A stretch of 64,000 bases of DNA from Phorcus lineatus. Its lineage: Eukaryota; Mollusca; Gastropoda; Trochida; Trochidae. The position numbers and the translations under genes are program-made. Below are positions 9,754 to 61,095 of this stretch, piece by piece. Under the pieces are notes generated by a model. The model ran no database searches. It saw only the letters and a program-made list of their open reading frames with translations, and had not been told where the DNA came from. The stretch is taken from contig OV121086.1 of assembly GCA_921293015.1 (NCBI GenBank), positions 31,123,194 through 31,187,193 of the forward strand, written 5' to 3'. Every line of letters starts with the position of its first letter. Position 1 is the first letter of the stretch.

Positions 9754-10524
9754 TTCTAACTTTGAGTGCAACAAAGAGCAAAAGGACTTCGCTTAAAACT
9801 GACGCCCGATGTTCAATTGTTAGGTTTTGATGTATATTTCAAAGGTTATGAGGGTCAATATAATGCACTTTTGTTAAATAGAAAGCATATTTTTCTCGAC
9901 ATTATCCTTAGGAAATACACATTTCCTGCTGGCATAGCACCACCTAAGTGGTTAGGAAGGGATCCGTTTCCAAAGCAGCCATGTTTCCTGTTAAATTGGT
10001 AAGTCGCCGATACACTAAAATTTAATCTATGAAATTTTAGATAATTACTTTTCCTTCTTCTTAGGCTTTTCGGTTAAATATAGATTTGCTGTACGAGGGC
10101 CTGGACTTATCAAAGACTCCTTTTATATATTCAGACATGACACAGGACTAAGCCAAGGATTATTTATTAGTTTTACTTTCAAATAACTTTAGTGAAGTAA
10201 GTATTTTATGGTCTTTAAATCTTAAAATCACGTATAAAGGGTTTGCCTTCTGAAAAATTTCTGTATATCTCATGTTAAACTGAGAGCAAAAATAAGGTTG
10301 TTATTTGTTTGTATATAAATAAATAAAAACGTTGTGTAGATAAAGTGTCTTTAAGACAAACATCAAAGCCAAAGCTTATCATCTGAAGAAAAGTTTCATT
10401 TCTCATTCATAAAAGTTAGCCAATATGTCTCTCGAACAAGGACAGGAAGACTAATTTCTTATAACAGTCAATAATCCTGAGAAATTCGGCGTATATTTCC
10501 TTAATCTTATGTTTTGTCAATGTA

Positions 10525-11122
10525 CAGCTGCATATCAAAAGTTTGTTCACATACCTGGGTATACTAGTGCATGTAATTTGGGATGCTTTTAAGGTATTGT
10601 AGCATTGCGATCAAGAAACCTATAGAGTCGAATTTTCAATACACACGTGCCGATCCATTCTTCTTTAGGGCAAATGTTTATCATACCCGACAATTCGCCG
10701 TTTTGGCAGTTCATTGAAATGACCAGAGGTAAAAATTTCGAAAACACTAATTTTAAATTTTCTCTACGAAATCCTTTTTAAGTTATCAACTGCTTTAAAA
10801 ATTAGTCATGTTTGTGCCTTTGGACTAAGTCGATGTGATTGTGCTGATTTTAGTCTGAGAGATTCGATATGGAACATTCTATTAGGAATTTAACAAAACC
10901 GAAATTTCGACAACATGACCCCTTATTTCTATTTCAATATGTAAATATTTGAATTTTTGCATGAGAGACCTAAATAAGTACAAGAATGGCTAATTCACAC
11001 ATGGAAATGGGTGAGGATCCTTTATCTGTTTTGCTGAAGTTATTTTATTGCCGTCCACACAAAACCAAAATTACATGCACTACGATTCGGTGGTAAGTGA
11101 ACAAACTTTTGGTATGCAGCTG
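10525..11122. mobile_element. MITE family B copy 1 (598 bp, TA-flanked)
   Basis: The ends CAGCTGCATATCAAAAGTTT and its inverted counterpart (AAACTTTTGGTATGCAGCTG) enclose a non-coding body related throughout to 12684-13274. A TA dinucleotide precedes the element; after it the site reads AA, so one TA has mutated. TA targeting and short inverted ends suit a Tc1/mariner-dependent MITE. Confidence 0.88.
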
Positions 11123-12238: not shown

Positions 12239-12683
12239 CTGATAAAAAGCAAAGTACCTTCAGCATTGATATTTCAATTTCAATAGACACATTAAGAGCA
12301 TTTGATTAACGAGTATGATAAAACATAAGCCTTGGGAATTACTTAGATAAATTTGTTCTATTTGGAAAAGGCCTAAGAAGAAAACTAATATATGACGTAT
12401 CAATTCAAGGATAGTTTTCTTGAAAACGTATAACAATGGCTTATTTTTTTATGAAAGAAATGGTTTGAAATGGAACCGAGATAAACAATTATAAACAACA
12501 TTTATAATTGCATGAGAACTCCAGAATCTTCAGGTTCATCGAGCTCTCTCTCCACTATTTAAGAGAATTAATCATAACAGTTTGACACAGTGAATATGGC
12601 AACGTCCTGCATGACATATGACGTTTATATGACTTAGAAGTTGAACAGGACTTGAAACAGTAATCCACGCCTCGAGGATTATA

Positions 12684-13274
12684 CAGCTGCATACAAAAAG
12701 TTTGTTCACATACCTGCGTATTCTAGTGCAGATATCATGTAATTTGGCATGTCTTTGAGGCATCGTAGCATTGCGAAAAAGAAACGGATAATTATTGAAT
12801 TTTCAATACAGAAGTGGAGATACATTTCACCTTAACGCAATCGTATGCCGCACCCAACAGGTAACCGTGATAGTGTTTGGCAGGCCACTGAAGTGACCAG
12901 GGGTCAAAATTTCGAAAACAGGAAAATTTTATTTTTCACTACAAAATCCTATATAATGACCAACAGCTTAAAACACAAGTCATGTTTGTTCGTTTGCATC
13001 AAGTCAATATGATTTTGTTGATATTTTTCTCTGAGAGTTTAAATGGAATATTTTTGTCAAAATTGAAGGAAATCAAAAATTTTGTTCATTTAATGATGCC
13101 AAAATTCTAATTTTACCATGAGAGACTAGACAATACAACGATATGTTAAGAATGGCTATTTTACACATTGACAATGCGAGATCTTTTGTCAGTTCTTCTA
13201 AAGTTATTTTATAGACATTCAAACATTATATTTGCACTAGGATACATTAGAAAGTGAACAAACTTTTGCAGCTG
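12684..13274. mobile_element. MITE family B copy 2 (591 bp, TA-flanked)
   Basis: The same CAGCTGCAT ends and interior as the 10.5-kb copy, in the same orientation, with intact TA on both sides (ATTATA|CAGCTG and CAGCTG|TAGG). Shared interior marks include GTAGCATTGCGA and AATTTCGAAAACA. Its minus-strand frames are not genes. Confidence 0.9.
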
Positions 13275-14787: not shown

Positions 14788-15890
14788 CATTGCTCTGCAT
14801 GTACCTATGTACTCATGGAAAGTGATATCACCAGTACCACATGCATGTATCGTTGTACTCATGGCAAGTGATATCACCAGCACATGCATGTATCGTTGTA
14901 CTCATGGGAAGTGATATCACCAGCACGTGCATGTATCGTTGTACTCATGGGAAGTGATATCACCAGCACGTGCATGTATCTTTGTACTCATGGGAAATGA
15001 TATCACCAGCACATGCATGTATCGTTGTACTCATGGGAAGTGATATCACCAGCACGTGCATGTATCGTTGTACTCATGGCAAGTGATATCACCAGCACGT
15101 GCATGTATCGTTGTACTCATGGCAAGTGATATCACCAGCACGTGCATGTATCGTTGTACTCATGGCAAGTGATATCACCAGCACGTGCATGTATCGTTGT
15201 ACTCATGGCAAGTGATATCACCAGCACGTGCATGTATCGTTGTACTCATGGCAAGTGATATCACCAGCACGTGCATGTATCGTTGTACTCATGGCAAGTG
15301 ATATCACCAGCACGTGCATGTATCTTTGTACTCATGGGAAGTGATATCACCAGCACATGCATGTATCGTTGTACTCATGGGTTGTGATATCACCAGCACA
15401 TGCATGCATCTTTGTACCCATGGGAAGTGATATCACCAGTACCACATGCATGTACCTTTGTACTCATGGGAAGTGATATCACCAGTACCACATGCATGTA
15501 CCTTTGTACTCATGGGAAGTGATATCACCAGCACCACATGCATGTATCTTTGTACTCATGTGTTGTGATATCACCAGCACCACATGCATGTATCTTTGTA
15601 CTCATGGGAAGTGATATCACCAGTACCACATGCATGTACCTTTGTACTCATGGGAAGTGATATCACCAGTACCACATGCATGTATCGCTGTACTCATGGG
15701 AAGTGATATCACCAGTACCCCATGCATGTATATTTGTACTCATGGAAAGTGATATCACCAGTACCACATGCATCTATATTTGTACTCATGGGAAGTGATA
15801 TCACCAGTACCACATGCATGTATCTTTGTACTCATGGGAAGTGATATCAACAGTATCACATGCATGTATCCTTGTAATCATGTTATAAAT
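14788..15890. repeat. 43/46-bp minisatellite, about 25 units
   Basis: Each unit contains GTGATATCACCAGCAC, then GTGCATGTATCGTTG and TACTCATGG. Units in the first half are 43 bp (CAGCACGTGCATG); most later units are 46 bp (CAGTACCACATGCATG). The GTGATATCAC palindrome is nearly invariant. Neighbouring units share private variants, as expected from recent local expansion. Not CRISPR: there are no unique spacers. Confidence 0.97.
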
Positions 15891-19659: not shown

Positions 19660-20795
19660 ATCACTCATCCCAATACTCTACCATTTTTTATAAAAAATCT
19701 ACAATTCCAATATTCTAACATTCATTCTTGTCCTGCCATTTATCTTATATTCTAGCGTTTATTCATTATATTCTACCTTTATTCTAATATCTACTAGCAC
19801 TCATTTATATATTCTACCATTCCAATATTCTAGCATTAATTCTTACACTACCATTCATTCCAATATTCTAGCATTAATTTTTACACTACCATTCATTCCA
19901 ATATTCTAGCATTAATTCTTACACTACCATTCATTCCAATATTCCTTCATTTATTCTTACACTACCATTCATTCCAATATTCCTTCATTTATTCTTACAC
20001 TACCATTCATTCCAATATTCCTTCATTTATTCTTACACTACCATTATTCTAATATTCTAGCACTCATTCATACACTCTACCATTATTCTAATATTCTAGC
20101 GGTTATTCATACACTCTACCATTATTCTAATAATCTAGCACTCATTCATACACTCTACCATTATTCTAATATTCTAGCACTCATTCATACACTCTACCAT
20201 TATTCTAATATTCTAGCACTCATTCATACACTCTACCATTATTCTAATATTCTAGCGTTTATTCATACACTCAACCATTATTCCAATATTCTAGTATTCA
20301 TTCGTATACTCTTCCATTCCAATTTTCTAGCTTTTATTCATACGTTCTACCAATATTCTAGTATTCAAATATTCAATTTTACTCTACCATGTATTCCAAT
20401 TTTGTAGCATTCACTTATATACTATGCCATTCCAATATTCTAGCATTAATTCTTACACTACCATTCATTCCAATATTCCTTCATTTATTCTTACACTACC
20501 ATTCATTCCAATATTCCTTCATTCATTCTTACACTACCATTCATTCCAATATTCCTTCATTTATTCTTACACTACCATTCATTTAAATATTCCTTCATTT
20601 ATTCTTACACTACCATTCATTCCAATATTCCTTCATTAATTCTTACACTACCATTCATTCCAATATTCCTTCATTCATTCTTACGCTACCATTCATTCCA
20701 ATATTCCTTCATTCAGTCCTACACTACCATTCATTCAAATATTCCTTCATTTATTCTTACACTACCATTCATTCCAATATTCTAGCATTTATACA
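19660..20795. repeat. 38/39-bp minisatellite rich in CATTCATTC and TATTC
   Basis: Typical units contain CCATTCATTCCAATATTCCT then TCATTTATTCTTACACTA (38 bp). A block at about 20040-20270 uses a 39-bp variant with CCATTATTCTAATATTCTAG. The ends are degenerate. Frames across it (HSFQYS-type repeats) are artefacts because 38 is not a multiple of three. Confidence 0.96.
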
Positions 20796-26020: not shown

Positions 26021-26121
26021 CAGTCGCTCCAGTGGAAAAAGGAAATCAATCTTTAGTGAAATGAATCGTTCAATAAACCAACTCACTTGCACAAACAGAA
26101 GTTACATTTACAGACTCAGTC

Positions 26122-27042
26122 AAGCTTTTGAACATTGTGTTCCTACTGTTCTTGTCTATACAAGTTGTGGTCACGAAGACATCTCACTTCACACGCAAGA
26201 AACATGAACCTCTCAAACTGACACATCACCTTACCTGTCCACATCTACCTGTAAAACAGCTGTGCAGTGCTCTGTAGCGGGTATGTCCACAACTGGATGT
26301 GACCTTGCTTATGTTGATTCTGGAAATTTGTACGAAAAGTCTGATACACCTGCCATCAAGACTCAGGTAATACGAAATTACGTTTAGTCTCTGGAGAACA
26401 ATTTTGATAAACCAAGAATTGGAAAGAATTGGTTTTGGACCGTCCATAAAACACTTTATTTTGCTCTCAACCAGAGATATATATGGTATATATAAGCAAC
26501 TTATGGTATCTGACTCGAAAGGGCAACGAATTTCGAAACATAAATGTATTGATTACTTACATAATATATACAATAACAGAATGATCTATTCCTTGAAGAA
26601 ATGTGTAAATAAGTACTGAGCACAAAATAAAGGCTTACTGTCAATAAAACTTCCATTTCCAATCTTTCGGTTGATGGCAACATGGCTTGCTGGATTACAC
26701 GTGTAGAGAGGAAATACAGTTCGATGAAATGTGTTGTGATATCAGTCAAAAGGGAAATCTATACTAAAACAATGACTTTGGTATGCTTGGCTTTGTTGAG
26801 ACCGATTATCGAGGGAAAAGTGACATCGAAGCATTGGAATATGCTTCAAGAACACTGCACATGGAACTAGATATGGGAAAGAGGAAAGTGGTTTTGGTCC
26901 ACGGCCATGTGTTCTTAACATTCGAATACGACAACAAAGTGCAAGTTCGAATTCTAGGGTTGCAGGCCAATTTTACCTCGCTTTTACGTCAATGCTCTTC
27001 AGTACTCGGGAAATGTATATTTACAACTGTTTCTGAATGTTG
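26122..27042 (+). pseudogene. Broken third copy of the secreted PAN-like / YWTD-like family
   Basis: The sequence follows the two intact paralogues from the signal peptide (LNIVFLLFLSIQVV) to near the C-terminus (VVLVHGHVFLTFEYDNKVQV), but is clearly inactivated. A T is missing at about 26230 (ACCTTACC against ACCTTTACC in both intact copies), shifting frame inside the cassette. The third cassette cysteine codon has become GGT. An in-frame TAG follows the RNYV motif near 26384. A large stretch is missing between there and the FWSQPDG region, and further shifts break the blade-like motif and the GNMACWIT region. The start ATGs of paralogue 2 are not preserved, although homologous leader sequence lies upstream from about 26020. 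The cysteine-cassette DNA is nonetheless almost identical to the intact genes. Confidence 0.85.
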
Positions 27043-28633
27043 AGCTGCCTAAATATTTATATTTAAATGTATTTTACTTTGCTTTAAATTTAATGGCAAA
27101 ATATGAACTTATTTTTTATATAGCAATCTCTGCTCACATCAACGTCATGTTTCAACGGACGGGACCAATCCAAGTTCATATTTCTGGAAACAGATTTGTT
27201 GAATAAACATTTCGCCTTTTAATTTATAATTTTCGTTGAATATTGTTTTAATTCTTGAAAAGAAATAACCATAAACATGCTGATATAAAATGAACACAAA
27301 ACAGACACAAAAACCAATAAGAGGTTTCTTGTTATTTATATATTAGTCATATTTGGAGTATATATGCCATTGAGATCGAACCTTCTCCGTCAAAACCTGA
27401 GATACCATAATCGATTCTGTCCATTATCATTGAGTTAAGGAACATATACAAATTACTTCAACTTGTTCTTAGAAAAATGGAAAGATTGTACGAGTTACAA
27501 TTTCAATTTATGAACATACTTGTTATCTTATTAATGGCCTTCGAGAGACTCGCATTTTGATTGCTTGAATTATCTGCGTCAGGCCTATGCGATCGAGAGG
27601 TCAAAGAGGAACCTGCCAGTTTGTGTTAATGGTGCCTTGTCAGATCTATAATTTGCATAACGTTGTACAGCAATATTTGATTTATTTTAATGAGATTGAT
27701 TTTCAACTATGCCAAGTAATCCATGGTTTGCGCTGTTTAAAAACAGAACAATATTATTATTCATGCAACGTTTTCTTTTCTATAACACTAACCTGAAATT
27801 TGATGAAATCATCCTTTGCTTGACAAACTCATTAAAAGCTACATGTGTGTCGAAAACTCACGGATTTAAAAAGTTTTAAATTCATTTACTTTTCTTGATA
27901 CTCTCACTATTTGATTGATATTGACGCAACAAGACATACCCTAGCTTGACATTTGATGAATACATATTTTGAAAATAAAATAATGGACGATACCAGGCTT
28001 ACCGTTATTTGATTTATAATGAAATTGATAAATTCATAATCCTCTTATTTGCAAAAGAGAAAACACTTAATTAATCTCTTTCATTTTCTTATGTAACTAT
28101 GGACATATTGGGAGAGGACTGAAAAAAGTAACAATTGATTCCAATCAATTTAACGTTTTATCACAATTAATCAAATCTATTGCGGCTATCATTCAGAATA
28201 AAAAATTGATTATGATTTTTTTATATTTAGACATATCATGTAGTCCTAATGGCATTGATAAGCAATAAGTTCATAAGTTTATGACTTGGCAAACCAAACA
28301 ATGCAAGATTTTGATGTAAGTTGTGATTTCCAAATAGTCAAATTTCTATGTATATGACAATGAACATAATCTACTAGGTTAATTAACATCGTTCTCATTA
28401 TTTCCTTTTAATTCACATTTTAAGAACATTTAATTGATGCATTGTAAGATTGTGTATTTAATGCTATATAATCAAAAACTTTTCAACTAGTAGTTAAGCA
28501 TGAGCAATAACTTACATTCAACAGCTAAAAGTAGAGAACGTAAAACACATGACAGTCATCGTAGGATCTTATAATACAAGTCATCAATCTGATTGATTGC
28601 ACAACTGATTTTCGATTGCATCCCATTAGACTT

Positions 28634-29001
28634 CATCCTGCTTCCTCAGCGTAATTGAATACGCTGATCAGAGTAATTGAATACGCTGATCGAGCTCCTT
28701 CGATATACCCTGATCTCTTTCGAGCCAAATCCCTCGTATGGCTGGCGCGGCTTGATGTTCGTGGCTGTGCTCACCTGTTATTATTTCAGCCAATGAAATG
28801 TTGTTATCCAATTGCAAGGAGCTTGAAGCTACTCTTTTGAACTTAACGGAATTTTACATCCGGGTTGTGCCGCTGTTGCTGGATGCGAGTCGTCTCATTG
28901 GCTGGTTATATAGCTAGCGATACGAGGCTTTTGGCCTAAAGGTTACCAGGGTATATGGAAGGAGCTGGATCAGCGGATTCGATTACGCTGATGTAGAAGG
29001 A
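28634..29001. mobile_element. MITE family C copy 1, with long inverted ends
   Basis: The left end TCATCCTGCTTCCTCAGCGT pairs with the complement of the right end (TCATCCTTCTACATCAGCGT). Pairing continues through GCTCCTTCxATATACCCTGG-like sequence for about 60 bp. The left side carries an extra tandem of GTAATTGAATACGCTGATC. The body shares TGCCGCTGTTGCTG and GAGTCGTCTCATTGGCT with 60637-60959. No transposase. Confidence 0.85.
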
Positions 29002-29698
29002 TGATTGCTGTAGACTTCTACATTTCTAGATTAGATGTAACATTTCATTGTGTGTTCAGTTTACTTATCATTTATGAACTTATATTTATTGAAATTCCCG
29101 AAATGAGTTCTAATAATATAATCATCTTTTCCCATAGATTAAAAACTACAACTTTTATAGATTATAAACTTTCCCTGTCACCTTGGAAAAATTCTGGCAA
29201 CAGCATTTTTTGACTGATTGAAATCAACAAGTCGAAGATTTTGAGGCAAATATAAGTAAGCTATTTCAGTAGACTAGCTTTGACATGTCCAATGACAGAA
29301 CGATAATAGTGGAGAATTATGCTGATAGATTTTTTCTGTATTTATAATTTTCGAAGTTGAAAAATGGTTACTTTAAAAAAGTTCTTCAGGTGATTTGTCA
29401 TCTACTGAACTCAAGGATCATGGATGACACCTGTATATTTCTGCAGAAGATACAATGGGGCTTGTTGATTTCTCTCTGTATTAAAAAAAAGAACCATTTA
29501 CTTGAAAGCATGATAATCTATAATAGGATTCCCGAATCTAATGACTAAAAGATCATTTGATTTCAAATTGATAACAAACATCATTTTGGAAAAAAACATT
29601 TAATTAAAATCCTTTTCCTCTAATGGAAAAGGGACATTAATGTTTTGACGAATACATTATTCAAATGGACCAACTACTATACCGTACTGACAGATGTT

Positions 29699-30880
29699 AT
29701 GTTATTCGTGTACGTGATGGGTTCCCACTCGCTCATGCTTTGGACACATAATTTCTTTTTGATTTTGTCTATACATACGGTGCTCACCAGGATATCTCAC
29801 TTCAAACACAAGAAACATGAACCTCTCAAACTGACCCATCACCTTTACCTGTCCACATCTACCTGTAAAACAGCTGTGCAGTGCTCTGCAGCGTGTATGT
29901 CCACACCTGGATGTGACCTTACTAATGTTGATTCTGGAAAATTGTACAAAAAGTATGAAACACGAGCCATTAACACGCAGGTAATAAGGAATTATGTTGA
30001 GCTTCTCGGGAACACTGTTGCCGAATTCAGAGCTGAAGAAAAGGAGATTGAGTATGTTCTTATGATTTCAAAGTATGGGCAAAAGAACACTACTAGACAC
30101 GTTTACAAAGTGTCGATGGCAACTGGAATAAGGGAAAAAACAAGAATCACTATGACCCAAACAGTGTTATCAATGGTTTATGACCATACATCCAACATTA
30201 TATTCTGGTCTCAGCCTGACGGAATATATGAACAAGTATTTGAATCTAGCTCCAAAAAGAAACTTACTTGTAAAAATGAATGGGTCAAGTATTTGAATAT
30301 ATATAAAAACAATATGTTTTATGTCCTGAAAGAAAGAAACAGTTGCATTTATACTCAATCGCTCTGTAAAAGCAAAGAGATGAAAATTTGGCTCTGTGTT
30401 AATAACACTTCCATTACTAATTTTGTGGTTGATGGCAACATAGCATGCATATCAGTCCATGGAAAGAGTAAATACAGTTCAATCAATTGTTTTGAAATGT
30501 CCTTCAAACGGAAAATCTATGCTCTATCACTCCCATCGAAGAAACGTGATTTCGAAAGTCTCGCCCTTCTGAAGGAACCCAACATTGGTATGCTTGTGTT
30601 TACCGAGAAATATTATCGAGGAAAACGTGACACTAAAATGGTTGAAATATCTGCAGAAGGGGTGTTTGGAAAGCCCAGAGAAATGCCTTCAAGGAGAAAC
30701 AAGAAAAAGGTGTATCTGATTCACGGCTATTTGATCTACACATTTAAACACTACAACAAAGTGGAACTTTGGGAGATATCTAAAAATGGCAAAATTGGAA
30801 AGAACACTTACAACTTTGAATATCCTTTCAGTAAAGGTTTCTCAACAGCAAGCAAGATAGTCAATTTAGCTTTTCTCTGA
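29699..30880 (+). CDS. Secreted PAN-like / YWTD-like repeat protein, paralogue 1
   Basis: An uninterrupted 393-codon frame; I do not recognise a named gene. The ATG at 29699 is chosen because it gives exactly the length of the downstream paralogue; ATGs at 29717 and 29735 are alternatives, and the frame also extends upstream without an ATG. Residues about 13-30 (LWTHNFFLILSIHTVLT) look like a signal peptide core. A cassette with cysteines at 56, 62, 66 and 72 (C-x5-C-x3-C-x5-C) resembles the centre of a PAN/apple module. From about 119 onward the protein is beta-rich, with FWSQPDG at 169-175 resembling one YWTD (LDL-receptor class B) blade; a whole beta-propeller is inferred, not shown. NTT and NTS sequons fit secretion. 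No transmembrane anchor is seen after the signal peptide. It lies between a broken copy and paralogue 2, all on the plus strand. A binding, adhesion or immune role is speculation. Confidence 0.8.
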   Translation: MLFVYVMGSHSLMLWTHNFFLILSIHTVLTRISHFKHKKHEPLKLTHHLYLSTSTCKTAVQCSAACMSTPGCDLTNVDSGKLYKKYETRAINTQVIRNYVELLGNTVAEFRAEEKEIEYVLMISKYGQKNTTRHVYKVSMATGIREKTRITMTQTVLSMVYDHTSNIIFWSQPDGIYEQVFESSSKKKLTCKNEWVKYLNIYKNNMFYVLKERNSCIYTQSLCKSKEMKIWLCVNNTSITNFVVDGNIACISVHGKSKYSSINCFEMSFKRKIYALSLPSKKRDFESLALLKEPNIGMLVFTEKYYRGKRDTKMVEISAEGVFGKPREMPSRRNKKKVYLIHGYLIYTFKHYNKVELWEISKNGKIGKNTYNFEYPFSKGFSTASKIVNLAFL

Positions 30881-32642
30881 AGAGATATCTAATATGGACT
30901 AATATGAAAAAGAATTATTCATCCAATTTATACATGAAGTATATGCTCGGTTTACAACTTATGAGTTGGAGACATGTTTAAGATCAGTTAACTGATTATC
31001 TTTTATCCAGCATGTGTGCAAACCACCTCAATGTTCTGCAGAAACTTTTATAGTGTTAGGGTTTTCTACAATGAATCGTTGAATAGTAAAAATGTCTTCT
31101 ATGAATTTGTAAAACTTTCAAAAGTCAATTTACTTGCTTTAGATTGGTATGAATAATATGATTCAATAGAACTTATGAACTTAAAAGGCGAAATAATAAT
31201 TTTTTTAAATGAATGAGATTTCTTTAATGATTCACAGAAAATGTCCACTGTCCACTGTTAAGGTAACCTAAATCAAACATTCTCAGCCATCTTTGCTCAT
31301 GTTTGGTTGTAAAATGGTCGTTTTTATCTCCTTCCTGCTATCCAAAATGAAACCAAAGAAAATATATGTCAAGCAGTCTATTCAAAACAATGTTGTGAGG
31401 ATGTTCAAGAACAATAAAAATGTGGACTAATTAAGATGAAAATAATAACGGCAATTGTGCTGAGAAGAGTAATCGTTTTTTTAAAAAGGTGTAGTTTATT
31501 CTGTTATTATATCAAAGTATTCGCCTTGCATTGTTACCCAAAGTTTGTATTAATTGAACATTCACTTTTATTCTTTGAACTACAAAGTTATTTCCATTTC
31601 AATCTATACTTACATGAGCATAGATTATATAATATATGTCTGCCATTGCATTTTTCCATTTGTCTTTAGGCTTATTACTATTTATTTTAAGATCTGAGGT
31701 TTTATTTCTAAGATCCCTTAATTAGTGTGTTCATGGCCGTCCTGACACTATCTTCACTTCCATTCAGATAATGCTGAGTTTACTACTGACTATATTTGTT
31801 TTCATTAACATGAAGTATGATGCGCTTAATATTTGGATTACACCGAATCATATTAGTAAATTTTTCTGTGTTAACAATGAATAAATAAGTTGAGATAATA
31901 TTCCTTGTTGGCTCACTATCTCAATTATGAACATTAAAGAAAGATGTCCCACAAAATACGTTTAAGACGTTGTAGAGAAATGATAAATAACTCATATGGA
32001 TAGTCAACTCTTATACATTGCATAAACAAAACATTTTGTTAAAGATACCTTAACCAATATCAAGCATGTGATTGGTAATTTATTTACACAAACAATATAC
32101 AATCATGGCTTCAGGGAGTATGTATTGCCATTAAGAGGTAAAAAAGCAAGAGCACTTAGGTTTTTGCCTTTCAGGTATTGTGACTCTCATAACTGGTGCA
32201 TATGATGCATATCTGCTACTAGACTGTATCATTATCAACGTCAGTTCTGTTTCCTAAAAACGCAGCGTGAATCATGATTTGAATACGTTTAAGAATTCCG
32301 GCATCAGTTTTTTGGGTTTTTTTATTATGCGAACAATGATGAATGTACCTGGGAGAGTCAAGTTGGCAACAGATCTGATGTTTTTGTTCACGTTACCTTA
32401 AATGATCATGAATCATGTAGCTTCAGCCAGGAAAGCCATTTGGGGGGAAATAATTATTGTTACTTTTTTCTATTCATAATTTCGAAAATTGTCAAATTAA
32501 TCATATATTTCTATCTTTAAGTGTCTTTTCATTCAACCAAGCTGAATTATCCTGATCGCCCTACAAAATCAAGTTTTACTTGACAAAAACATGTTCCTTA
32601 ACTCATCACTAAGCCATGATAGGTTAATCTTTTTGAGTCCAT

Positions 32643-32847
32643 TTCTCTACCTCAAATGATTAAAAAGGTTCACAAACAAATGACTGCCAGTGGTTTTGAC
32701 ATGATAGTTTCTCTAACCCTAAAGATGATCATGATTAGTAATAAGATGTTTAGACCCTCTGAAATAATGCAATTGACTCAACTATTTATAAATCGAGGAA
32801 CACATTTGAAGAAATAAAATCCAATAACAGTGCTACTGCGCCTTAAA
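32643..32847 (+). mobile_element. Repeat family E copy 2
   Basis: TCTCTACCTCAAATGATTAA, then TAATAAGATGTTTAGACCCT and GTGCTACTGCGCCTTAA. Same orientation and order as 18306-18515. Confidence 0.75.
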
Positions 32848-34189
32848 TGTTCGTGTATACAAAACAAAAGATCTTTAAGATAACATTTGACTTTCATAAA
32901 TATTTCACACAATGACAGCAAAAATAAATTTGTTTATTCATTTGAAATAAAAAAAATTGTAAAGGTATGATGTAGAAAAATGCAAAATGTGAAAATTGCT
33001 ACTTGTGAAAAGGCACGTGATCCAGGGGTAGAAAAACTGCTAATAATCGACTATTAATCGTTCATGATTGAAAAAATACTTAATACGTGCTAAAACTTAG
33101 ATAATTATGTAAACACAAGTATTGTCTGAAAAATGAAAGTTGACATCAAATTCCCTTTTTTCTTGCATGTTCATTGTCACGATGCTTTGACCATAGATAC
33201 TGGTTTGTAGAATATTGCAAGATCCCAGGTGAGGAGAAAACATTACAAAATGTAGTTCTTAGTCGCTTTAGATTAACGTTAACACTTTATCTGAGAGGCC
33301 TTATAGTTGACAAATTCCGTTGCTTTACACTCATGAAAAAGAACACCATATTCAGGAGAAATTAAGAGCTATTGGACTGCTCAGTGAATATATGCTGACA
33401 ACTTTCACGTGTTGCCAATAACATTGGACTATGAGAAGGTCGAAATTGTATCGGATATAAATCATTACAGTGATTGTTAGGACCGCAAGGTTCGTCACTG
33501 ATTGAACAAGTCATCAAAAGTTATCAATTTCGAACAGACACTTCCTTTTGGGATATGTTGAAGCCCGATTTTAAGCTTTGAAGAATCAAAATGAGCACCT
33601 GAAAATATTTTTTTACTCAACCTGAGTTTTGATTGTCAAAATGTAAATATCGTTTCATCAACGTAAATTTGAGAGGAATAGTGTATCTATTGCAGATAAT
33701 TCATCTAAAGCTTCTATTTTCATTCGTTCTTAAAAACAAATTACGAAATCTTCCTTTTGATCTTCAGTTTATTCAAAAGAAAAATGTAAAAATGCTTAGA
33801 AATAGCATTTGGATACCTCGTGAGTCATAACTTTTCCGTTATAATCTGAAAATATCTGAAAATACACTAAAACATTACAGATTAATGTATATTGCTAAGA
33901 CTATCGACAGACAATTATGACATTTCAAACATTTAAGATTATACATTCTCTTTGATTTGTCAGCTCAAAAGCAATTGTTCAATTGTTTAAAATCCAAAAG
34001 TAATGATAAATAACATATATACCTTATTAGTTGTTTTGTTTCCATATAATGTTTGAAGCTTTGGATGTGTATAAAATCAATTCTCACAATTTATTATACC
34101 TTATCAAAATATATTCACATAGAAAATGACATTTCTGATGAATGTATATATATGATAAAAAGTATGATTAATATACAAACTGTTATCGA

Positions 34190-34293
34190 AAATGAAAAGC
34201 ATTTTGCTCTAATGGCAAAAGCAAATAATTCTTTGGTGAAAAGTTGTTCAATACGACAAGAGCTTCACTTGGACTAACAGAAAAAATATTCTA
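34190..34293 (+). promoter_or_regulatory. Leader block shared by the three family members
   Basis: The bases before paralogue 2 (CTCTAATGGCAAAAGC, then TTCTTTGGTGAAAAG and TTGTTCAATA) recur before the broken copy (26025-26075: CTCCAGTGGAAAAAGG, TCTTTAGTGAAATG, GTTCAATA) and in part before paralogue 1 (29612-29635: CTCTAATGGAAAAGG). This is probably part of the duplicated unit holding the 5' untranslated leader or proximal promoter. I cannot place a transcription start or a TATA box with confidence. Confidence 0.4.
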
Positions 34294-35475
34294 ATGATGT
34301 TAATGATGGATGCATACTCAGCCATACTTTTGAACATTGTTGTCCTTCTGTTCTTGTCAATACACTTGGTGGACACTCGGACATCTCACTTCACACACAA
34401 GAAACATGAACCTTTCAAACTGACCAATCACCTTTACCTGTCCACATCTACCTGTAAAACAGCTGTGCAGTGCTCTGCAGCGTGTATGTCCATATCTGGC
34501 TGCTTCCTTGTTGATGTTGAATCTGGGAAATTGTACAAAGAGGTTGAGACACTTGCCACCAAGACTCAGGTGGTAAGGAACTTTGTTAAGTATCTCGAGA
34601 ACAATTTTTATGAATTAAGAAATGAAAGGAAGAAGGTTGAGTATATACTGATAGTCTCAAAGTATGGGACAACGAAAAAAGCAAGGTCTGTTTACAAAGT
34701 GTCCTTGAAAACAAAACTGATGGAACGGACAAGAATCACTATGACAAAAACAGTGCTATCAGTAGTTTTTGACCGTCCATCAAACACTTTCTTTTGGGCT
34801 CAGCCAGACGGAATGTATAAACAAGTCATGGGATCTAACTCGAAAGGAAAAAGAATTTCGAATCAAACTTGGGTTAATGATTTGAATATATACAATGATA
34901 AAATGATTTATTACTCGAACAAAGGTAATGATAATTTTATTTTCACTTGCTCACTAAGCAAAAGTTATGACCCCAAAATATGGCTTACCTTATATAATAC
35001 TTCCATTTCCAATCTTGTGGTTGATGGCAACATTGCATGCTGGATTACACACGAAAAAGGAGAATTAAACATTTCGATTAAATGTGTTGAGCTGTCAACG
35101 AAAAAGGAAATCTACATGAAAACAACCTTGCTGGTAGATGGTGATTTTCGAAGTTTGGCCCTTCTCAAGGAAGATGACTATGGTATGCTTGTCTTTGTTG
35201 AGACCAATTATCGAGGTACATATCTCACCAAAGCAGTGGAATTTATTTCAGGAAGACTATTCAGAAAACCAAGAGAACTTGTTATTGAAAAGACTAACAG
35301 GCGTGTGTTTTTGGTCCGGGGTCATTTGATCTTCACATTCGAATGCAACAACAAAGTGGAAGTTTGGGAAATATCTAAACAAGGCATTCTTGGAAAGAAA
35401 ACTTTGTCAACACACTATCCTATTGTTAAAGGTTTATCAAAACCATTCAAGACGGTACATGTGGCTTTTCTCTGA
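34294..35475 (+). CDS. Secreted PAN-like / YWTD-like repeat protein, paralogue 2
   Basis: An intact 393-codon frame from ATG 34294, with further in-frame ATGs at 34297, 34303 and 34306. Residues about 9-28 are a strong hydrophobic signal peptide (SAILLNIVVLLFLSIHLVDT). The cysteine cassette has C54, C60, C64 and C70. Over the 36 residues beginning HKKHEP it matches paralogue 1 at 32 positions by my count. The region after about residue 115 matches only around half as well, but keeps RITMT, the FWAQPDG blade-like motif, NIACWIT, SLALLKE, GMLVF and VWEIS. Both proteins end in VAFL or LAFL, and the DNA around the stop is shared (GCTTTTCTCTGAAGAGATAT). Sequons NQT, NTS and NIS are present. A polyadenylation signal (AATAAA near 35714) lies about 240 bases past the stop. 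No coding introns. Function is unknown; tandem duplication with divergence suggests a diversifying extracellular family. Confidence 0.82.
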   Translation: MMLMMDAYSAILLNIVVLLFLSIHLVDTRTSHFTHKKHEPFKLTNHLYLSTSTCKTAVQCSAACMSISGCFLVDVESGKLYKEVETLATKTQVVRNFVKYLENNFYELRNERKKVEYILIVSKYGTTKKARSVYKVSLKTKLMERTRITMTKTVLSVVFDRPSNTFFWAQPDGMYKQVMGSNSKGKRISNQTWVNDLNIYNDKMIYYSNKGNDNFIFTCSLSKSYDPKIWLTLYNTSISNLVVDGNIACWITHEKGELNISIKCVELSTKKEIYMKTTLLVDGDFRSLALLKEDDYGMLVFVETNYRGTYLTKAVEFISGRLFRKPRELVIEKTNRRVFLVRGHLIFTFECNNKVEVWEISKQGILGKKTLSTHYPIVKGLSKPFKTVHVAFL

Positions 35476-35710
35476 AGAGATATCTGATATTCACTGTTTT
35501 CAAATTGATTTGAATCTGTTGTCTGATTGATATTTTCTTTGAAAGCAATTACTTATTTGAAAAATTACCTCCATATAACCAACTTCTTTGTGATGTCTTG
35601 TTTTCAGAATTTAATTTATTATGTTTTGAAAGAAAAACTAGAAAGTAACTTTAAACTTAAACTTTCACAGAAACTCTTCTATGCTTCTATATTTCTTCTA
35701 CATAATTTGC

Positions 35711-38639: not shown

Positions 38640-38742
38640 TAAAGAGTCACTCCGTAATTTTCATCACATATTATTTACCTTTGATACGAACCTAAATGTC
38701 ATATGTGGTGATATAAAATCAAAACATCTTACAGTACACCCA
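38640..38742 (-). mobile_element. MITE family A, half copy
   Basis: TTAAAGAGTCACTCCGTAAT, then ATATTATTTACCTTTGATAC and TGATATAAAATCAAAACATC match the right half of 3350-3825 in reverse. The match stops where the TTCTAGAA array region begins. Confidence 0.75.
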
Positions 38743-38759
38743 TAAATAAACATACCCCG

Positions 38760-38905
38760 TATCTAGAAACACACTAGAAACACACTAGATACGCACTAGA
38801 TACGCACTAGAAACTTTCTAGAACGTATCTAGAAACTTTCTAGAACGTATCTAGAAACTTTCTAGAACGTATCTAGAAACTTTCTAGAAATTTCTAGAAA
38901 TTTCG
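38760..38905. repeat. TTCTAGAA (heat-shock-element-like) array, left
   Basis: About four units of 22 bp (GAACGTATCTAGAAACTTTC-type), preceded by divergent CACACTAGAAA units. At 38882-38904 five alternating TTC/GAA triplets stand in perfect 5-bp phase, the HSF-binding consensus. Orientation is opposite to 46297-46440. Confidence 0.9.
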
Positions 38906-39531
38906 AGTTTTCACTCTTTTCAAAATATTCAAAAATTATAATCTTAATTAAAATCCTCATGTTTTCTTTGCCTGTTGTGAAATTTTGAACAAGATTGCAT
39001 CAATAGAAAGAGAGATAATTAATATTGAACTTTAAATCTTCCTCGTTTTAACGCGTCTCTTTCCGCGGCACAAGAAGCAGTCTATTTATAGCGCACGTCC
39101 TTTATTAGCTTCACAGCGACAGGCGTTAATTAGATCGCTCGTCTTCAAGATGTTCCGACGCATGTAGTTTGTTTTTGTTGTCGTTATATTATAACAATTA
39201 TATGTAATATAAAACTTTGCAATAAAGCAGTAATAAAAGAAGTAATTATAGTTGACATAACGTATATACATTGAGATTGCCTTTTTATAGATAATTTATG
39301 CAAGCTTATGAACAAAGAGGCTTTGGGGACATGTATTAATCTGTCACTACATGAATTATATTGTAGTTTAAACATATTTTATTTCATTATATAGCGCTTC
39401 TTAACAAATATACTATTACATACAAAGTGACGTACATATGGACGAATGAACACATACATACAGTAAACAGGACGGAATAGATGCATGATTATGTTGGACA
39501 CTTTTCAATGAAACAATTAATGTTTACAAAC

Positions 39532-44600: not shown

Positions 44601-46296
44601 TCAAGCACAAATGTAAATATTGATTAGCAGGATAAATTAGGACTTTTAACTTTTAACATGTAAAATGTATGCAGATTTTCGACGTCCTTACACTTATATG
44701 GCCGTTTTTCATGTATCAATGAAAAATAAAAATAGCAAAATTTGGGAATTTGGGAGATTTACTGCATTCATAGAATATGAACACCTCAAATATGATGTAC
44801 TTAAAACAGCGAAATATATTGTTCGCTATTTAGACTAGTTTGATCATTTATAAAAGTTTACACATAAATATATAGTTTTCATACTAAAGATCAATTGTTT
44901 TATTCAAATGTATGTTGTTCCAATCCGTTACTACTCAGTATTACTAACAAACATGTACAGCATGGAGGAAATCTAATATACCGTCTCTCAAGAAAAAGTT
45001 TATGAAGCAAACACAGTTCTGGAATAAAAATATTTTAAACCTTTAAACCATACCATGGATAATGAAACAATTCTACATAATTTTGATCGAATATTGAATA
45101 TGTTGTCACAGTGTTTCACTACTCAGTATATAAACATACACCTTGGAGAATTACTGTGACGCTCTACTCACTGTGTGAGTGGACATCGGCATGGCTCTTA
45201 TAATTATGTTGTCAGATAATACGACGCGACAAGGATGAGCGTACCTTCATCTTCCACAAATTAAAAGATACTTCCTAAGATTATCCGTAGAAAGACATGC
45301 ACATAATTTGTTTGAACAAATTAGTAACGGTGTTTCAACAGTCTGAATATAGTTCGAGTTTACTATTGTCAGGCCCAAAGCATTGTAGTTGTACATGTAT
45401 AGTAAGCGCGCACACTATAAAAAAAGATGACGGCGAGGGAAAATAAAAGCTTAAGACAAACTAGAACGGCGACAAGTTGATGTGACCGACGACAATTGCT
45501 TGGTTAAAACTGCGAATGCTTTCATGATTGAATAAAACGTCAAAAGCGCATGCTTGCTTAGACCTAGAAAACCCTTTTTTCTCAACATTCAGATAAGTCA
45601 TTATAACGTGAAAATGTTGCCTTCATATTTTCATGTAGAGACAGAGAACTAACTCTCACAATCTTTTCATTTCCTGAAGCGCAAGCAGAGGTCCTTTGCA
45701 TTAATCAATCCCCCTATAACCAATTCAATTATAATATGTAAGTCTTTGAAGAAACGAGGGTATTTTTTATTTGCATATTTACTTCAAATATGTCCTTATT
45801 AAACCAACAAGAATGGGATTTTCTTTTTTTTTATCTCATTCACCTATTTATTTAAAACGTTATTTTGCACGCATGTTTAGTTTACAGATTGAATATTACG
45901 AACTGAGAGAGAAACGTAATTTACTAATTCCTTTTGCATATAAGAAAGATCAATGCATTTGACGTACATGAAATAAAAATAGAAGACTTAGATAGATAGT
46001 ACGTACGTTTTCTCTGAGGTGATAAAGGGCTTTGATTATAAACCTAATCAAAATCATTTTGAAGGCAAAGCTGTACGCTGACTTAAGTTGTTGACCAGAC
46101 GCGTTACAGCTCATTAGCGCGTTAGCAATGCGTAGCGTTATAATGAGGATGCGTTGTAGAGGAGGGAAACTTTAACATTGAATATCTTCTTTCCTAATTA
46201 ACATAAGCAGTTCATCTTTTCAAATTGTGCAAAAGATAACATACAGTTTCAGAAAAAAATAAAATTATTTGAATATCTCTCAAAAAATAAAAACTC
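44601..46296. other. Non-coding, TE-derived in part
   Basis: No coding match. The stretch 46080-46190 (ACGCGTTACAGC, TTAGCGCGTTAGC, GAGGATGCGTTG) looks loosely like the reverse complement of 39040-39130, supporting an inverted arrangement around the arrays. Confidence 0.4.
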
Positions 46297-46440
46297 GAAA
46301 TTTCTAGAAATTTCTAGAAAGTTTCTAGATACGTTCTAGAAAGTTTCTAGAAAGTTTCTAGATCCGTTCTAGAAAGTTTCTAGATCCGTTCTAGAAAGTT
46401 TCTAGATACGTTCTAGATACGTTCTAGAAATTTCTAGAAA
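46297..46440. repeat. TTCTAGAA (heat-shock-element-like) array, right
   Basis: Eight TTCTAGAA cores, several inside AAAGTTTCTAGATACGTTC or ATCCGTTC units. It is the reverse complement of the left array in unit order, and flanking bases on both sides also look related (ACCATAAACAAAC-like outside; TTTCGAGTTTT inside). Five phased pentamers lie at 46297-46319. Confidence 0.9.
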
Positions 46441-48173
46441 GGGGGTAGTTTGTTTATGGTTGTAGTGTAACTTTTCATGTCCAAAATTTGGGAACTGAAG
46501 TTGATGTGTGTTGCAGGTGACACCCAATGGCCGAGGGAAAATAAAGCGCAGCTGAGAAGCATAGCAGAATTATGGAGGAATACAAATGTTTCAATGAATG
46601 AATGAAAAAAATTGAGGTATTTAATGACTGCGTGAATGTTGATGTGATTCAATCTTTTTTTAACATTCAATAGCTAATATTTGAAATTGTCATCTAATCA
46701 ACGCGCTTTACTGGGTGATCATTTAACTATAAACCCAAATCGTCATTGGTTGACTAGCAATGGTTCGAGGTCACGGGTCAGGTTGACACAGCGTTGACAC
46801 AAAGACACGTAACTGCACTGTGAGGAGTTTAATATAAAGTAATCTTGTTACCATAGAATTGGCTCTTAGTATCTTATTATTCGCTATAATTTTCGTACAT
46901 TCGTGAATAAAAAGATTATAAGGGATCCACTTATGGTTTGATTCAGTCCAAGAAAGTAACGCCAATTATCATGATTTTAAAATAATTGATTAATATAAAA
47001 TCATAAATGTCAAACTTTCAAATTCTTCCACAAATATATAATAATAAATTCAAACTTTACGTGCCAATATCATAAAACTGTCTCTCAATACTTCACATAA
47101 ATGTCATACTCTGGAGATTAAGTTTCGGGTTTAAATAAGTCTGAAACTATATAATATTAGTTAATTTCCATATCTGCCAGTCATACCTTTCACAACAACA
47201 CTCGAGTTTTCTTCAACTAGCAATCAGACTGTTAACTGAGCATTTATAAAACCGCATCCCAAACTTTTGTTCACCACCTTGCTTATCTCACTTAAAATAT
47301 CGTGTTATTTATATTTCTATATAAGGTAAGTCTGCATGAAGTAAAGGGAACCTATATGCTGGGAGTTTTCATTTCAAACGAGGCGATTGAACGTCCAAAT
47401 TTTTAGAGACTAATGGCTAAAAATTTCGAAGACTCAAGGTTTTTATCTTTTACTTTTGAATCTCTCATGAGTGATCGACAGGATAAAAATGAGTCATGTG
47501 ACTTCTTCTATGCCCAATCAGCGCACTTATTGCAGATTCATGTAAAGTTTTTTATCCTCCAAACTGGATTTTCAAACTTGAAAAGATTTGTAAGCATGAA
47601 CAAATGATGATAATTAAGTAAGGGCATTTGAAGTGATAAAATTGACGACCATGCGAAATTGAAATAACATGATATTGTACTTCAGTTGGATAAATTATGT
47701 TAACTGGGTAAAACGCTTAAGGTTTTGTGGGTTTGTATCTCATAGTGTATGAATGTAGACTAAAATAGTTATGCATAATTTTAATAATTCACTTTTCCTT
47801 CATCCATTATGTTCTTTTCTTCGGGCTCTTAAATTCATGTGTATTCCGTCAACTCTAGACTTTCTGAATGAGGACCTAGACTGTATTAAGGCTCCAATTT
47901 GTACACAGTCGTGAAGCAGGGTGGAGCGAGAGCGAATGCGTTCCCCCCTGTGACAGGATGTGTTTAGTTGATCATATGACAAGTTATATGCAAAAAGAAC
48001 GTAAAATTTCGACTTATGATTGCACTGCCGTTTATCGATAATCATTGAAAACAAATTATTATGATACTTTTGGTACTTCGAGGATGAACATGCAAGATTA
48101 TGCGATGTGATTTGAAATGAACTCTGAATCTATGGTACCACTGGCCCCTATCTATGCAGAAGCAAAGTTTAGC

Positions 48174-59442: not shown

Positions 59443-60636
59443 ATGTCTTGCAATATTTAGCAATATATCGTGAAAATGTGTATATTAATCATAAAACAAT
59501 ATTTTCTTCATACCACTTGCATGAATTTTAAAAATAAATATTTAAAATTCATATTTTCCAAAACCGTTTTTCAAAGGCTATTACTGAATAATTTAAAGCT
59601 AATTCTGTGTCTATTAACTGATGGCAAAATACTTTAGTTTCTTATATGGTATACTCTAAAAATACATTTTTGGTTGCAATGTGCTTTCCTTAAAGGCAAT
59701 ATGAACATTCATCGTTTCAATCTCATTCCTATGGTATCCAATGGTCAACACGGGATTTAAATTATTATTCAGTTATTATGCTGACAGCCATGCGTTCAGT
59801 AACGAAGAATTTCCCGGGATGTTAGCGAGCGCTCGCGAACACTAAATGCTATAAGAATACCCGCCGCGAACAATGTGTTACTGAACACAACTCAGTACTA
59901 GTACTTCAACTTTAGTCTCCCGGATGTAATTAATTATCCCCGATGATGGAGATGCACACTACTAAATTTGGTACAATGCTGTAAGGCTTATGTTAGCCCG
60001 TTACAGAGATTGGCACGTCTTAAGCCTTGCAGCGGAAGTTGTCATTTCCAAAGAGCTTCCTCTATCCGATCAGTATCTCTCAGACCAAAGATGGCAGTGC
60101 CAAGGAGAGTTCTATTTATCTATTTGTACTTATATCATACTTTGAGATGTGATCATTTGGTGCCATCATTTCTGTCAAATAACTCTAAAATCCTTTAATG
60201 GTTGACAAAAAGGATTTTGTTCATGTTTTGGTCACACAGTTCCTAAAATAAGATATTCATGTTTCCAAGAAGATGACTCAAGTTCATCAGACAGTTATAA
60301 TGAGGTATGTATATATTCATTCATCATTTGGAAAATAGTGTTATTCTCGAAGATGAATGGTCTTGAGCACTGATAAGTTGACAACTATCTTAGAAGTTCA
60401 GCAACATTTGGTGCAGCTTGCTGGACAGCTGGGGTACCCTGTTCATTGCTTGATATACTGAATGGGTGATTCCCTAGCCCACAATAAACAGCGTACTTTG
60501 GGCAAGAGACCTTTAATAAAACATGTTCACCCAGCAGTACATTTTTGATAACCATAAAGTGCTAATTAAACATTATATTGTGCAGTGTAACCGAAACAAA
60601 TGACTAGTTTTGTTCCACCCTGCTAAATCAGCGTAC

Positions 60637-60959
60637 ATGAATCCACTCTCGCTCCTCCTTAATAACCTGATCACTTTCGAGCTAAATCCCTCGTAAGGCT
60701 GGCAGCTTGATATTCGTGGCTATGCTTACCTGGCAGCTTGATATTCGTGGCTATGCTTACCTGTTATCTTTTCAACCAATGAAATGTCATTAATCAAGGA
60801 GCTTGAAGCTACTAGCTTGAACTCAAAATTTTTTTCCATCTGCGTTGTGCCGCTGTTGCTGAATGTGAGTCGTCTCATTGGCTAGTTAGATAGCTAGCGA
60901 TACAAGGGTTTCAGCTTGAAAGAGATCAGGGTACTAAGAAGGAACCAGAATGGATTCAT
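60637..60959. mobile_element. MITE family C copy 2
   Basis: The ends TGAATCCACTCTCGCTCCTC and the complement of TGAATCCATTCTGGTTCCTT pair over about 35 bp. The interior matches the 28.6-kb copy. A 31-bp segment starting TGGCAGCTTGATATTCGTGG is duplicated in tandem at 60699-60760. Confidence 0.85.
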
Positions 60960-61095
60960 ATAAACTGAATTATCAAGATGGTTTTCTTCCCACAATGTTC
61001 ACAACGATCAAACCACAATGTTAACTCTAGATATTTTCTGTTTTTATTTCTGAGGTGTTGATAAATAAAACAGAGGCTCGATCATGTTCAAATAT

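Follow-up and report, generated by a model that had tools for sequence, protein, structure and literature searches.

Gene copies at the locus

The window analysed here, 64,000 nucleotides (nt) from the gastropod Phorcus lineatus (GenBank assembly GCA_921293015.1, contig OV121086.1, positions 31,123,194 to 31,187,193 of the forward strand), carries a small tandem family of three related gene copies. As the first-pass annotation of this DNA had described, all three lie on the same strand and two of them are intact open reading frames (ORFs) of exactly 393 codons. New relative to that annotation are a near-identical tract common to every copy, even the dead one, and the PAN/apple-like spacing of the cysteine cassette. 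Positions are those of the window, and the copies are as follows.

26111..26947, forward strand: copy 1, broken; pieces homologous to both intact copies, with several stops and frameshifts, internal deletions and a missing 3′ end
29699..30880, forward strand: copy 2, intact 393-codon ORF; hydrophobic N terminus, four-cysteine cassette, beta-rich region
34294..35475, forward strand: copy 3, intact 393-codon ORF; hydrophobic N terminus, four-cysteine cassette, beta-rich region

The predicted proteins of copies 2 and 3 are identical at 210 of 390 aligned residues (54%), and the DNA of 29715-30895 and 34304-35490 is 71.5% similar. The homologous pieces of copy 1 lie in different frames. As copies 2 and 3 are separated by compensating indels, two residues at the N terminus and two internally, their equal length is a coincidence without meaning of its own. 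The open frames are consistent with coding regions free of introns, as had been annotated. Searches by tblastn with both proteins revealed no further copy within the 64-kb window, the remaining matches having E values of at least 2.7.

A weak similarity of ~90 nt before the coding region, recognized by eye in the alignment of the three copies, is taken as a candidate promoter or 5′ untranslated region. Poly(A)-signal words occur 3′ of every copy, the first at 27202 (copy 1), 31413 (copy 2) and 35714 (copy 3); they are weak evidence because the DNA is AT-rich. An origin as retrocopies was considered and set aside: no poly(A) tail was seen by eye at the ends of homology, and tandem DNA duplication is therefore preferred.

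A near-identical tract shared by all copies

Comparison of the copies in pairs revealed one short stretch in which divergence nearly vanishes. Its coordinates were converted by hand from alignment columns.

26181..26340, forward strand: tract in dead copy 1; 10 differences in 160 nt against copy 2; 6 differences from copy 3 in the first ~110 nt
29794..29954, forward strand: tract in copy 2, which spans linker and four-cysteine cassette; 3 differences from copy 3 in the first 110 nt
34383..34492, forward strand: tract in copy 3, counterpart of the copy 2 tract

Inside the tract, copies 2 and 3 show 3 differences in 110 positions, compared with 33% outside it; the corresponding values are 10 of 160 and 37% for copies 1 and 2, and 6 of 112 and 27% for copies 1 and 3. 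The likelihood ratio of the tract was reached by none of 40 shuffles for each of the three pairs. Between copies 2 and 3, the synonymous divergence (dS) of codons 31-70 is 0.076 compared with 0.917 for codons 71-350. Among residues other than Met and Trp that are identical in both proteins, the codons differ in 2 of 34 cases inside codons 31-70 and in 54 of 167 elsewhere (Fisher p 0.0013; the boundaries 31-70 had been picked after the tract was seen).

Alternatively, the tract could have been kept by selection on the DNA or on the cassette, for example on a regulatory or RNA element within the coding region. The tract does coincide with one discrete portion of the protein (residues 31-70), where the nonsynonymous divergence (dN) is also very low (0.056). 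However, synonymous sites are conserved there about as much as replacement sites, and the proportion of nonsynonymous differences (pN) equalled or exceeded that of synonymous differences (pS) in 391 of 1000 bootstraps. Moreover, the dead copy retains the tract while its remainder has drifted. Since this copy shares the tract despite a 1-nt deletion within it, selection on the protein alone fails to explain the similarity. Copy 1 also changes its closest relative beside the tract. When informative sites were counted in bins of 100 columns, its favoured partner was copy 3 in 9 of the 12 bins and copy 2 in columns 200-299 (15:5:5). Copies 2 and 3 paired with each other in columns 100-199 (4 of 7 sites) and in columns 1100-1199 (15 of 21), where copy 1 hardly aligns. 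On these grounds selection is an unlikely explanation, and short gene conversion appears to be the simplest account of a tract common to all three copies.

Selection and coding status

Over the 391 aligned codons of copies 2 and 3, dN is 0.344 and dS 0.662, and pN reached pS in 0 of 1000 bootstraps. The same was obtained for codons 71-350 (dN 0.378, dS 0.917; 0 of 1000). No constraint was seen at the two ends, that is, in codons 1-30 (dN 0.470, dS 0.635; 297 of 1000) and in codons 351-393 (dN 0.364, dS 0.292; 710 of 1000). From this pattern by codon range it follows that, as judged from the sequences, the bulk of both proteins is under loose purifying selection.

The C-terminal 43 codons (35344-35472 of copy 3, compared with copy 2), where dN lies above dS, form a second stretch of low dS. 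It is perhaps another conversion tract or a site of positive selection, and is too short to tell which.

When the bases of 28 kb of the window were shuffled 20 times, the longest stop-free run per shuffle spanned 93-148 codons. ORF length beyond chance, together with purifying selection over most of that length, indicates that copies 2 and 3 both probably encode proteins. All copies might instead be decaying, as recently inactivated genes whose frames are still open by chance: one of the three is dead, the start of copy 2 is only weakly hydrophobic, and both terminal ranges are without constraint. That pS exceeded pN in all 1000 bootstraps across the full length of two 393-codon frames that are 54% identical speaks against such decay, which we regard as very improbable.

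Protein anatomy and the four-cysteine cassette

The secretion signal was judged by hydropathy. The signal peptide of the first-pass annotation is clear as a hydrophobic N terminus in copy 3 (best Kyte-Doolittle mean over 15 residues 2.7) but weaker in copy 2 (1.6). By hydropathy, neither protein has a second hydrophobic span matching the strength of the copy 3 N terminus. We infer that the proteins are secreted, with this N terminus as candidate signal peptide. It is followed by a basic, His-containing linker, a C-x5-C-x3-C-x5-C cassette and a beta-rich stretch of ~285 residues. Three N-x-S/T sites occur in each protein, one of them at corresponding positions (N235 of copy 3 and N236 of copy 2).

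The annotated short four-cysteine cassette is formed by Cys 56, 62, 66 and 72 in copy 2 and by Cys 54, 60, 64 and 70 in copy 3. In a PDB profile search the apple-domain protein microneme antigen L2 (2yil) aligned with the cassette at chance level (E 2). Pfam PAN families were absent from the matches of the cassette segments at E ≤ 10. The copy 2 segment resembled the N-terminal domain of KIAA0319 (KIAA0319_N, PF23597) at E 0.015 and 15.5 bits, short of the 27-bit curated cutoff, and no match to this family was found for copy 3. A piece of copy 1 matched DUF7361 (E 0.085, 13.6 bits), also below the cutoff of 29.5.

According to PMC9249922, the PAN core contains four to six cysteines, in HGF Cys 70, 74, 84 and 96. 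The likeness lies in a cysteine-rich N-terminal module with C-x3-C, as in the PAN core; the difference is that the cassette holds its four cysteines within 17 residues, lacks the later core cysteine and has no Pfam PAN match. The cassette thus resembles a shortened PAN/apple core without the full set of cysteines, and is called PAN/apple-like here rather than a member.

Fold of the long region and family assignment

The long region of both intact copies was considered as a candidate beta-propeller.

30017..30877, forward strand: beta-rich region of copy 2, candidate beta-propeller; used as an alignment row, modelled only via copy 3
34606..35472, forward strand: beta-rich region of copy 3, candidate beta-propeller; sequence used for the model

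The AlphaFold model of the C-terminal 289 residues of copy 3 is beta-rich and weak, with a predicted local distance difference test (pLDDT) score of 47.5 and a predicted template modelling (pTM) score of 0.50. The structural matches listed for it are mostly beta-propellers, but partial. The earlier full-length model was too poor for use; its Foldseek list contained many propellers, at template modelling scores (TM-scores) below 0.2. The first-pass annotation had named a beta-propeller model as support for its reading, and the models lean that way in the kind of matches listed rather than in their own quality. Propellers of the YWTD type (low-density lipoprotein (LDL)-receptor class B), namely LRP6, megalin and ApoER2, are among the matches listed at ranks 19, 20, 26, 41, 47 and 48 in one list and 39 and 47 in the other. 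The single YWTD-like motif of the annotation exists as a site, which reads IFWSQ or FFWAQ; no literal YWTD occurs in the sequences of copies 2 and 3. Like the YWTD propellers, the proteins would be extracellular, and the length of the region would suit six blades. Unlike them, they have neither a Pfam class B repeat match nor a Pfam-recognised EGF or class A module, no second hydrophobic span equal in strength to the copy 3 N terminus and, as judged from the open frames, no introns in the coding region.

LRP6, megalin and ApoER2 do not rank above other propellers among the matches listed. Some observations favour a different fold or class: both low-confidence models place a C-terminal helix in the position expected for the closing strand, structures of prolyl-peptidase, Sec12, RbBP5 and DDB1, not of YWTD propellers, head the VIA-align rows, and Pfam recognised no propeller family. 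The region might instead adopt a beta-rich fold that is not a propeller, or belong to a different propeller class (WD40-like, seven blades), in which case its likeness to YWTD would be superficial. Since most of the matches listed are propellers and the length would suit six blades, we consider this a serious though less probable alternative. A propeller fold is tentatively favoured by the models.

Sequence searches gave no name to the family, in agreement with the first-pass annotation. With both full proteins, Pfam returned no family at E ≤ 1; among eight segments no family reached its cutoff, and the propeller segments had no class B repeat match at E ≤ 10. No solved homologue was found by PDB sequence searches, whose best match, Mid-cell-anchored protein Z (E 0.061), was taken as chance. 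Viral and prokaryotic contig collections contained nothing usable, although such collections say little about an animal gene family. Internal repeats corresponding to propeller blades were not detected, as the observed scores were reached by 51 of 200 shuffles in one test and by 54 of 60 in another; diverged propellers can lack detectable internal repeats. In the literature searched, subscription papers excepted, we recognised no title on this family, and we do not claim that it is unpublished. As far as the searched libraries go, the family is without a name. It looks like a young duplicate family, a diverged member of the familiar extracellular binding proteins and not something fundamentally new.

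Proposed explanation

We give about even chances to the following reading as a whole. The copies would form a small, fast-evolving tandem family of animal genes whose products are secreted, each product with a signal peptide followed by a short basic linker bearing a four-cysteine PAN/apple-like hook, and by a propeller of ~285 residues. This propeller would most likely be six-bladed and of YWTD style, its sequence badly eroded. An extracellular ligand may be bound at the propeller face, while the hook would dock the propeller to a partner or surface, so that the protein would act as a secreted adaptor. The propeller would diverge under loose purifying selection, and short gene-conversion tracts would homogenise the hook region across neighbouring copies, the dead copy included. 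Within this reading the copies, the pattern of selection on them and the common tract are demonstrated, and the propeller fold has weak support.

Loose selection and the array setting suit immune, reproductive and gland secretions alike. A bolder version, which we regard as rather doubtful, would see lineage-restricted, fast-evolving recognition propellers in a constant/variable scheme, in which conversion keeps the docking cassette uniform, even in the dead copy, while the ligand-binding propeller diversifies for invertebrate immune or gamete recognition.

If the proposed explanation is true, the locus contributes a secreted propeller family that has no name and carries a reduced cysteine hook. 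It would also be a compact case in which conversion acts on one module and the neighbouring module diverges, a contrast open to direct test in related species and populations. If it is not true, what is left is a nameless young duplicate family of an ordinary kind. The main interest of the locus is the probable conversion tract; otherwise the family is an ordinary young one.

Surrounding DNA

The window is AT-rich, with a G+C fraction of 0.27-0.39 in 2-kb steps. ARAGORN found no transfer RNA and Rfam no family at gathering score. Ten of the 307 listed ORFs of the window were scanned against Pfam, apart from those of the copies, which were scanned separately, and gave no match at E ≤ 0.1.

The window contains minisatellites and inverted-repeat elements. 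A related pair resembling miniature inverted-repeat transposable elements (28633-29004 and 60615-60981; 72% alike) has long inverted-repeat arms of 80 and 89 nt, which are 80% and 76% complementary. An element of ~590 nt occurs twice, at 10523-11111 and 12682-13268 (69% alike), the ends of the first matching each other in inverted orientation (10525-10582 against 11122-11065); judged by its sequence, the element is probably what remains of a DNA transposon. An 11-nt CTAGAAA-type unit forms arrays in opposite orientations at 38761-38904 and 46297-46441, within a longer inverted similarity (38729-38940 and 46260-46470). Two large minisatellites comprise 24.5 copies of a 43-nt unit at 14796-15882 (94% matches) and, at 19704-20789, 28.5 copies of a 38-nt unit (84% matches).
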